This document shows, one piece after another, positions 577 to 54,100 of a DNA stretch of 64,000 nucleotides. Positions within the stretch are counted from its first letter, which is position 1. The number at the start of each line of letters is the position of its first letter. The translations under genes were made by a program, and so were the position numbers. Source of the stretch: Acidimicrobiales bacterium (GTDB lineage: Bacteria; Actinomycetota; Acidimicrobiia; Acidimicrobiales; SHLQ01); contig JAHDEJ010000002.1 in assembly GCA_020628865.1 (NCBI GenBank), forward strand, positions 1 to 64,000, written 5' to 3'. The notes beneath the pieces are model-generated. The model saw only the letters and a list, made by a program, of their open reading frames with translations. It searched no databases and was not told the origin of the DNA.

Positions 577-1431
577 TCAGTTCGACGTGAGCCAGTCGAG
601 GTTGCCTTCTGCGGCTCCTCGGCTCCATCCGGCTGTCGTTCGTGTCTCTCCGTCCTGATTGATGAAGACGACCGTCGGGATGCCCGTGGGGCGATGCTCG
701 CTGAGGTACGTGTTCGTCGCCTGCTGGTTGGTCCACTCGGAGACGTTCGTCAGGTTGGTCGCGCCGGTGTCGATCAGGAACTGCTCGATCTCTGCCTCAC
801 CGCCGTCGACGGCGACGGCGATGAAGTCGACACTGGGATAGTGCTGCTGAAGCTCTGCGACCGCAGGAGCCGATGACCGACAGTGCGGTCACCAGGGTGC
901 CCAGAACCACAGGAGTTGGTCCCCTGACGCGGCCGGTGCCGCGGTTGTCGTGGTGGTTGGTGCTGCGGTCGTGGTCGTGGTTGGTGCTGCAGTCGTGGTC
1001 GTTGTGGGCGCAGCGGTGATGGTCGGCGCTGCGGTCGAGGTCGTCGTCGCGAGCACCGTCGTCGTAGTTGTCGTCGTGGTTGAGCTGGTCGCCGCCGCCT
1101 GACGCGTGGCCTGCGCATCGACGGCAGCCGCTGCCGACTCGACGTCCCACCGGTCGGAGGCCTCGTCCGCTGCGGACGATTCCTCGGGCGAGACTTCGGC
1201 GGCGGACGTGGCTGTTCGGGCCAGCGCTGCGGGAGCCGTCGTCGATACGGCCGCGCTCGCTTCGTCCGCCGACACCGAGGGCTCGAAAGCGCCGCCGAAT
1301 CCGCTGGTCGTCATCTCGGATGCCTCGCCGGCTCCACAGGCAGCGAGAAGGCCGGACGCGACAACGAGCACGACGAGCGATCTCCACCTCGGCGAGGTGG
1401 CTGGCGGGATGGCGGGCATTCCCCCGTGCAT
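577..1431 (-). CDS. selenocysteine-containing thioredoxin-fold lipoprotein (in-frame UGA = Sec181)
   Basis: Secreted thiol-disulfide oxidoreductase of the thioredoxin/TlpA type, 284 residues if the UGA at 889-891 is read as selenocysteine. A lipoprotein signal ends in LLAAC (Cys32). Residues about 40-170 form an Ala/Ser/Thr-rich linker with repeated APTTTTTA units, a tether off the membrane. The catalytic domain starts near 170: W-A-P-W-U181-P-H-C184-R, then a normal thioredoxin core with the cis-proline loop G-I-P252-T and a closing helix. Sec takes the place of the attacking Cys of a CPHC motif. Downstream of the UGA the frame stays open for 103 codons, and the RNA folds into a SECIS-like hairpin (separate entry). 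It follows an SDR gene on the same strand with a 69-base gap. A nonsense mutation is the alternative, but that would not predict the SECIS or the intact downstream domain. Automatic annotation would truncate it at 889 or miss the domain. Confidence 0.85.
852..870 (-). promoter_or_regulatory. SECIS-like hairpin after the UGA codon
   Basis: Read on the minus strand the RNA is GCU-C-CUGC-GGUC-GCAG-AGC: three base pairs, one unpaired C on the 5' side, four base pairs and a GGUC apical loop at 862-859. The E. coli fdhF SECIS has the same plan (stem, one bulged U, four pairs, GGUC loop bound by SelB). There are 26 bases between the UGA and the loop, versus 18 in fdhF. A second, mutually exclusive pairing of GACCGCA (starting in the UGA) with UGCGGUC is also possible. 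Function as a SECIS is inferred. Confidence 0.75.
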
Positions 1432-51180: not shown

Positions 51181-54100
51181 TCAGTTGGGAAGGTTCACCC
51201 CAGCGAGTGCCTCGTCCCGCTTCGGACCGCTGCCGAAGTTGCGTTCGACCTCGCTCCGTTCGCTGACGACACGGCTGGAACCGCCCGGCTCCATCGTGAC
51301 GCCGTAGAGCGAGTCGGCGGACTCCATCGTGCGCTTCTGATGGCTGACGATGACGAGCTGCGCTTCGGCCCGGAACTCTTCGACGAGGCCGAGGAAGCGA
51401 TGGAGGTTCACGTCGTCGAGCGCCGCTTCGACCTCGTCCATCACGTAGAACGGCGACGGCCGGCTGCGGAACACGGCGAAGAGGAACGCAAGCGCCGTCA
51501 GAGACCGCTCGCCACCGGAAAGGAGCGAGAGCTTCTTGACGTTCTTGCCGGACGGCTTCGCACTGACCTCGATACCCGTCTCGAGGAGGTTGTCGGGCTG
51601 GGTCAGCTTCAGTGAGCCCTTGCCACCCGGGAACAGCCGCTCGAACAGCGTTGTGAAGTTGTCGGCAACGTCGGCGTAGGCCGAGGCGAAGACCGTGACG
51701 ATCTCCTCGTCGATCGCCTTGATGACCTTGTTGAGTTCTCGTCGGCTCGACCGGATGTCGTCGAGCTGGCCCTGGAGGAACTCATGACGTTCCTGCAACG
51801 CTTCGAACTCCTGCAGCGCCAGCGGATTGATCGGGCCCATCAGCTTGAGGTCACGTTCGAGTTCGCGTGCTCGCGCGGCCGGAGTGACGTTGTCCGGGAG
51901 TTCCGGATGCGGCGCCTGCAGCGCCCCTTCGGGATCGATGTCGAGGTCCCGACGGAGCATCTCGGTCGTCGTTTCGAGGCGGAGTTTGGTCTCGGCCTCC
52001 TCGATGTCGACCCGGCTCATGCGTTCGCCGAGCTCGCGAAGCTCGGTCTCGGCATCGGTCCGCTGCTTGCGGAGGCCATCGAGGTGCTCGGTGAGATCCC
52101 GCACGATGGCGGACTGCTTGCGCCGCTCCTCGCGCCGGGCCTCGAGATGGACGTCGAGCTCGCGTGCCGTCGTGCCGAGCATCACCTGCAGGCGATCGGT
52201 CAGCTGCTCGGTTCGGTCGAGTACGACCCGGCGGTTCTCGGCCTCGGTCTCTTCGACGGCGAGGCGTTCGAGCCGATCCTGCACGTCGCCGAGGCGACGG
52301 CGCAACACGCCGCGGCGCTCTTCGATGGCGGCCTGCTTGACTTCGAGCGCCGTGCGCTGGTCTCGCAGGCCGGAGTTCCGTTGCGCCAGGGCGCTTCGGG
52401 TCGCTTCGAGCTCGCGGCCTCGTTCGGCGCTGGCCACCTCGGCGGACTCGAGCCCGGGCAGCAGACCCTCGAGCTCGTCGGCGCGGGCGGACTCGCGGTT
52501 GAGCCGCTGTTCCAGCTCGGACCGCTGCGAGACGAACGCATCCTGCTCGATGTCGATCTGTCGGACCTGCGCTTCGATCTGGTGCAGCGCCTCGGTGGTC
52601 GAGCTGAGGTCGGCATCGTTGCGGTCCAGATCGGCCGAAGCCAGCGCGTCGGCCGCCTTCAGCTGCTGGAGCTCGGCCTTGAGCACCTCGAGACGGTGGT
52701 CGCAGTCTTCGCGGTGGGCCTTGGCTGCATCGAGAGCGGCCTGCGCTTCGTCGAGCGCCGCCTTGGTGGCACCGACCGTGGACGAACCGATGCGCCAGAC
52801 ACCGCCGCCGATGCGATCGCCGCGGCGGGTGACGACCACGCGACCGGCGGAGGCGAGCGAGAGATCGAGGGCGGCACGCCAATCGCCCGGCACGACGTCG
52901 ACGTCGGCGAGCAGGCGCTGGAGCAGCTCGGAGACCTCGGCCCGCTCCGACGAGACGTGCTGGAGGATGGAGTCCGGGCCGGGGGTGAACGGCATCGGCG
53001 CCGCTCCCCCGAGGGCCAATACAGCGCCGGCGCCGGGGCCGGACTCGAACCTTTCGAGAGCCTCACGGGCTCGCTCGGGGCTTTCGACGACGACGGCGGA
53101 GAGCACGCTGCCCAGCGCGGCCTCGACCGCATCTTCCCAACCGGGCTCGATGGCGACGACGTCGAGGATTGTTCCGACGAGGCCGTCCATGTCGGCGAGG
53201 GCGTCGGCGCCCGCAGCCGAGCGGGCGGAATCGAGGGCTTCGGCGAGTGCCTTGGATCGAGCCTGGGCCGACCGGAACTCGGCTTCGGCTTCGGAACGCT
53301 CTTCGCGCAGGGCCGCCATTGTCTCCTGCGCCGCAGCATGGGCAGACTTCGCCTCGTCGGCGGTGACGACGAGCTCGGCCTCGCGGGCCACGGCAATGTC
53401 GAGCTTCTCCCGCTCGGTCGCCGTGCGGGTGTTCAGCTCTTCGCGGCGGGCATCGAGCGAGTCGGCCCGCTCACCGATTCCGGCCAGTTCGCGTGTGGCG
53501 CTTTCGATCGATGCGCGCAGCGCCACCAATTCGCCGCGCACTTCGGCGGCTCGGCCGGCGGCGGCGGCCTCGTTGCCGTCGTCGGATGCGGCGGCGAGTG
53601 CGAGCTCGAACAGCTCACGGTCTTCGGACAGGCTGGCTTCGACGCGGGCGAGTTCCTCGAACTCGGGCGCAAGCTCCTCCACGGAGGCGTCGGCGTCCGA
53701 GAGTTGGCGCTGGAGCTGCGACGCTTCGTCGCGCAGCGAGGAGAGGACGTCGCCGTCGATCGTGGCCTGTCGTTCCTTGGCGATCGAGCGCAGGCGCTCG
53801 GTGAGCAGCTCATCGGCGCCGCGGGCGCGCTGGCTCAGGCCTTCGAGTCGGGCGAGCGCATCGCCGAGGTCGACGGCGCCCTGAGCCGAGAGGTCGCTCT
53901 CGACGGAGATGATGTCGGTGTCGAGTTTTGCCAGGAGGCTGCGAAGTTCGTTGTTGCGAGTGCCGAACTCGTTGCGGCTCTGCGCATGCGTCTGCATCTT
54001 GGTGCGCAGGGCGTTGACCTGTCGGCCGGCCAGGTAGAGCTGGCAGGCGTGGAGTTCGGCCACGACGTCGCCGTGCCGGCGGGCGGCGTCGGCCTGCTTT

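Follow-up and report, generated by a model that had tools for sequence, protein, structure and literature searches.

A gene of a bacterium of the order Acidimicrobiales very probably encodes a membrane-anchored enzyme for disulfide exchange, with selenocysteine (Sec) as the predicted attacking residue. The gene lies in a window of 64,000 nucleotides (the whole stretch of DNA analysed; positions 1 to 64,000 of contig JAHDEJ010000002.1, assembly GCA_020628865.1), and the reading of its in-frame UGA codon at 889-891 as Sec is strongly supported: the position of the UGA, homology running through it, a covarying SECIS hairpin, the Sec machinery and conservation were all computed and agree. We consider it highly likely, from sequence comparison, that the gene encodes a lipid-anchored, extracytoplasmic oxidoreductase of the Mt-DsbE/Mt-DsbF (TlpA-like) kind with a predicted Sec as the attacking residue.

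Results

The gene contains an in-frame UGA codon at the active site of a thioredoxin-like domain

The frame starts with the ATG at 1431 on the minus strand, reads into an internal TGA at residue 181 and continues for 103 sense codons to the stop codon. Sequence and translation thus bore out the initial annotation, which had described a frame with a single UGA followed by 103 sense codons. The features are:

577-1431, minus strand: predicted selenoprotein gene, 284 residues with Sec181, stop TGA at 577-579 (sequence, homologues)
1336-1431, minus strand: predicted lipoprotein signal peptide, residues 1-32, lipobox LLAA-C32 (sequence)
922-1335, minus strand: low-complexity Ala/Thr/Pro/Glu linker with TTTTTAAP repeats (sequence)
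580-921, minus strand: thioredoxin-like domain of the TlpA/ResA/Mt-DsbE type (Pfam, sequence and fold searches)
889-891, minus strand: predicted Sec181 UGA, position 1 of U-P-H-C (aligns with the invariant Cys of Cys homologues; UGA retained in orthologues)
880-882, minus strand: predicted resolving Cys184 of the UPHC motif (sequence; invariant Cys in the alignment, Sec in the UxxU paralogue)
673-684, minus strand: cis-Pro loop GIPT, residues 250-253, Pro252 (sequence)
851-870, minus strand: bSECIS hairpin with apical loop GGUC at 859-862, 26 nt 3' of the UGA codon (homologue comparison; bSECIS constraints of PMC13188914)
844-891, minus strand: match to covariance model R1 (UGA and SECIS region), 53 bits, the sole strong match in the window

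The UGA stands in the context LLWFWAPW-U-PHC. With Cys put at the UGA, the Pfam families Thioredoxin_8 (39 bits; cut-off 27), Redoxin (37.3 bits; cut-off 26.6) and Thioredoxin all scored above their cut-offs, with alignments extending past residue 181 to residue 262. No NCBIfam model exceeded its cut-off in a search with the protein. The earlier placement of the UGA at the first active-site position of W-UGA-P-H-C therefore stands, and the cis-Pro loop is intact as described. The signal peptide with its lipobox LLAAC (residues 28-32, spotted by eye) and the Thr/Ala/Pro linker are likewise present as claimed, and a lipobox-like motif lies 5' of the UGA in 20/20 further family members.

The base composition by codon position 3' of the UGA (0.61/0.50/0.80) is close to that of a neighbouring real gene (0.67/0.52/0.83). 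An open frame of 103 codons is not by itself decisive in GC-rich DNA, and it is the homology across the frame that we regard as decisive.

The predicted enzyme resembles Mt-DsbE and Mt-DsbF

In a fold search with an AlphaFold model of the thioredoxin-like domain (pLDDT 84), Mt-DsbE (MPT53, Rv2878c; 1LU4) ranked first and Mt-DsbF (Rv1677; 3IOS) second, followed by ResA; the same two proteins were the top bacterial matches in the sequence search. Model and fold search both point to a single TlpA-like thioredoxin domain in the product, as in the two mycobacterial proteins, which are also extracytoplasmic. They are the best fold match and a good sequence match at about 24-26% identity, and the wider actinobacterial family carries the motif WFWAPWCPxC. 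However, both have Cys where Sec is predicted here, so that UxxC replaces their CxxC, and their solved domains are without a long Thr/Ala lipoprotein linker. By analogy, we call the product a Sec relative that would work like Mt-DsbE and Mt-DsbF, and not a member of their group or an orthologue. The UPHC enzyme likely catalyses extracytoplasmic thiol-disulfide exchange, with the predicted Sec181 as the attacking and Cys184 as the resolving residue.

The direction of electron flow is where a rival reading of the same selenoprotein comes close to even odds: instead of acting as an oxidant of the Mt-DsbE/Mt-DsbF type, the protein may be a reductive surface thioredoxin, Etrx1-like or ResA/CcmG-like, that receives its electrons from CcdA. 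Two such proteins, the pneumococcal thioredoxin lipoprotein Etrx1 (4HQS) and ResA, likewise came out close in fold. Moreover, the genome encodes one CcdA/DsbD_TM protein (L161, G000:C108:19627-20259), followed by a Cys-containing TlpA-like gene (CDAC), a pair that is a candidate extracytoplasmic electron pathway; a VKOR partner was sought in the genome and not found. The dipeptide of the UPHC active site argues for an oxidant, as we take PHC to be a DsbA-like motif. So do the nearest neighbours in sequence and fold, since Mt-DsbE and Mt-DsbF support oxidative folding of hirudin and leave insulin unreduced; their proposed partner is DsbD-like (PMC3853704). The reductive reading is compatible with our preferred one, from which it departs solely in which way the electrons flow.

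The gene belongs to a family with conserved UGA codons

Besides this gene, the same genome contains five thioredoxin-like genes with UGA at the equivalent codon (UTRC, UPNC, UPFU with two UGAs, UPTC and UGTC), and the SECIS model located a seventh, L135 (UPTC). As a lower bound, the family thus counts at least seven predicted selenoproteins in this genome, one of them with UxxU. Five proteins (L015 at G000:C105:80398-80679, L034, L047, L194 and L195) carry two UGAs spaced by 9 nt, one at each active-site position (UPFU or UPHU), and have one GGUC hairpin for the pair.

Relatives with Cys at position 181, which the initial annotation had proposed to look for, exist: the UGA aligns with a Cys that is invariant in 29 Cys homologues. 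Cys homologues with WFWAPWCPxC are plentiful in Actinomycetota; a scan of named genomes used a Cys back-translation of the query and recovered Cys homologues only. In the orthologues L020, L021, L177 and L178, the UPHC motif with its UGA is retained and followed by about 100 open codons, so the decay downstream of the UGA that would have counted against the initial annotation is not seen in them. The nearest orthologues share about 36-42% identity with the protein, and three listed genus members (G171, G196 and G585) gave no match to it at E 1e-10.

In an order-wide search of 198 genomes, the best 150 matches fell in 87 genomes. Among these matches, UGA homologues occurred in 56 genomes (the active-site UGA was verified in 29 fetched loci, the other matches being scored by stop count only), and selA was found in 55/56; among the same matches, 16 of the 31 genomes with Cys forms only were without selA (Fisher p 3.5e-8 for UGA versus selA). 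The one listed genome with UGA homologues in which selA was not found, G170 (contigs C208 and C374), is 83% complete and in 520 contigs.

In a tree built from a short alignment, in which many forks are unresolved, L012, L020 and L021 grouped together (100/88) with L013 next (93/91), all of them Sec forms, and the UxxU proteins formed one clade (100/97). Sec and Cys labels changed at least 4 times on this tree, compared with 22 times in shuffles. Because the nearest orthologues are only about 36-42% identical to the protein, synonymous and non-synonymous changes were counted in close pairs of other family members; 3' of the UGA, synonymous changes outnumbered non-synonymous ones, e.g. 11 versus 2 and 19 versus 8. 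We take this pattern to mean that purifying selection acts on the family's sequence 3' of the UGA. A comparison of the gene neighbourhoods of the window, L162 and L163 revealed no conserved context hinting at function.

A covarying hairpin follows the UGA at a fixed distance

Counting the U of UGA as 1, GGUC occupies positions 30-33 and is closed by a C-G pair (C-GGUC-G, +29 to +34) in 29/29 UGA forms, and an intact hairpin was found at this position in 0/8 Cys forms. Loop and stem were also present in 20/20 further UGA homologues that had been excluded from model building. In a control set made up of the window and fetched stretches of the host genome and two related genomes, the hairpin motif followed 9 of 3,877 TGA triplets, eight of which belong to family members and one of which is a chance case. 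In the stem, 93% of cells were paired, with 18 double-change cells, a level reached in 0/500 shuffles, and controls slid along the sequence gave 23-61% paired; the exchanges were UA to CG, GC to AU, and CG to GU or GC. The folding energy of the region is unexceptional (z -1.4, simple shuffle), and energy alone was discarded as evidence, as it does not separate UGA from Cys forms; position and covariation do separate them.

As in the bSECIS of E. coli formate dehydrogenase, a GGUC apical loop sits on a short stem; however, the loop is here about 8 nt farther from the UGA and the stem sequence is different. The layout agrees with the published bSECIS constraints (PMC13188914). In UxxU proteins, the distance to a single hairpin is 26 nt from the first UGA and 17 nt from the second; each spacing falls inside the published range, and this one hairpin would serve both codons. 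Beyond the order, the strong readable matches to R1 were again UxxC thioredoxin-like proteins.

Two observations concern variants of this element. The Cys homologue L032 has GGTC at the loop position after its TGC, the closing stem pair being absent, and is possibly a relic of an earlier Sec gene that changed to Cys. Two divergent UPTC paralogues, L135 (G000:C2:203252-203290) and L160, lack the GGUC hairpin 3' of the UGA and have ACGTCGAG instead.

These data bear on the possibility that the UGA is a true stop, leaving either a pseudogene or a lipoprotein of 180 residues that has no thioredoxin fold. A standard-code reading does end at 889-891, the gene lies near the start of the contig, and no orthologue above about 42% identity was found. 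Nevertheless, the UGA and the open frame after it are kept in the four orthologues and in dozens of paralogues, the family appears to be under purifying selection 3' of the UGA, the SECIS is fixed in position and covaries, and the Sec machinery is encoded, and we regard a true stop as very unlikely.

The host genome encodes the selenocysteine machinery

The initial annotation had called for a search for the Sec machinery, and in the genome containing the window (113 contigs, 96% complete) tRNA-Sec, selA, selB and selD are all present. The tRNA-Sec, with anticodon UCA, scored 65.1 bits, above the Rfam cut-off; selA adjoins selB, both above their NCBIfam cut-offs, and SelB carries a C-terminal winged helix (SelB-wing_3); selD, also above its NCBIfam cut-off, is on the window's own contig. 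The SelD gene (L010, G000:C106:117069-117992) has its own in-frame UGA (motif GAGUGCK), followed by a hairpin unlike that of the thioredoxin family. A 96-nt tRNA-Cys called by ARAGORN at 51881-51976 was considered as a possible special tRNA and rejected as a false positive (no Rfam match, E up to 1).

A reading in which a near-cognate or altered tRNA inserts Cys or Trp at the UGA would fit the Cys position that this codon occupies and could invoke the ARAGORN tRNA-Cys in the window. However, that tRNA, besides being without Rfam support, has the anticodon GCA and not UCA, and both this gene and the neighbouring SDR gene terminate at TGA; moreover, tRNA-Sec(UCA), SelA, SelB and SelD are present and the UGA tracks selA across genomes, and we give this reading as small a chance as a true stop. 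Least probable of all is a sequencing or assembly error at a codon that is really TGC or TGT, for although the assembly is in 113 contigs, the UGA recurs at the homologous codon in many assemblies together with a SECIS that is missing from Cys forms.

In total, the UGA lies at a conserved Cys, is followed by a covarying bSECIS at a fixed distance, is conserved together with the frame, has relatives with Cys at position 181 and occurs in a genome with SelA, SelB, tRNA-Sec and SelD, all of which supports the initial reading of this codon as Sec.

Discussion

The proposed mechanism is as follows. SelB with Sec-tRNA(UCA) would bind the GGUC-loop hairpin just 3' of the UGA, and Sec would be inserted at position 181 during translation. 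The protein would then be exported and lipidated at Cys32, with the long Thr/Ala linker holding the domain away from the membrane. At the cell surface, the Sec181 selenolate may attack substrate disulfides or take electrons from substrate thiols, depending on the direction of electron flow, and Cys184 would resolve the mixed selenylsulfide; the likeliest electron partner would be a CcdA-type membrane conduit, which the genome encodes.

Thioredoxin-fold selenoproteins with UxxC or UxxU are already known, and TlpA-like and Redoxin families are among them. Thiol-disulfide isomerase-like UxxC (cd02966/PF13905) and Redoxin-family UxxC (PF08534) selenoproteins are inventoried in PMC13188914, and the GOS survey lists a UxxC family 'Trx-like 1' (COG0526; PMC2398784). 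In these families, and by prediction in the protein described here, Sec takes the place of the first CxxC Cys of a TlpA/thioredoxin-like domain; the Pfam domain and UxxC (UPHC) are both found in our protein, and the likeness is one of domain and motif. Acidimicrobiia, a lipid anchor, a linker and a multi-paralogue expansion are not named in the parts of the two sources consulted. In known UxxU selenoproteins (Prx-like thiol:disulfide oxidoreductase, PF00578; GOS Prx-like 2), both Cys of CxxC are replaced by Sec, as in L015 (UPFU); however, those proteins are peroxiredoxin-like, whereas the fold family of L015 is of the TlpA/DsbF kind.

What is new is the lineage (Acidimicrobiia and other Actinomycetota) and the paralogue expansion, which seems not to have been described previously. 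The initial annotation knew of no description of a UPHC lipoprotein of this kind; this holds insofar as a full-text search of an incomplete literature library returned no description of selenoproteins in Acidimicrobiia, but the UxxC kind is known and the gene has many paralogues in a large family. We tentatively propose, at somewhat less than an even chance, that Acidimicrobiia and some other Actinomycetota have a large, undescribed family of lipid-anchored Sec oxidoreductases in which one conserved SECIS hairpin at a fixed distance serves either one UGA (UxxC) or a pair spaced by 9 nt (UxxU), forming a selenylsulfide/diselenide redox system at the cell surface.

Automated gene prediction that ends at UGA would give a shortened lipoprotein, and the enzyme would go unnoticed. 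The host genome, in which SelD and seven members of the thioredoxin-like family are predicted selenoproteins, at least eight in all, reaches the published threshold of six for a 'selenoprotein-rich' genome, a class reported so far mainly for anaerobic groups (PMC5029168). These observations suggest that selenium is commonly used in the extracytoplasmic space by a large group of actinobacteria for which no such use is described in the literature searched. Nature supplies the same fold with UxxC, with UxxU and with CxxC, a set on which the catalytic value of Sec versus Cys can be tested, and this organism, with at least seven predicted selenoproteins of the family, is a good natural case in which to ask why selenium is used in place of sulfur.
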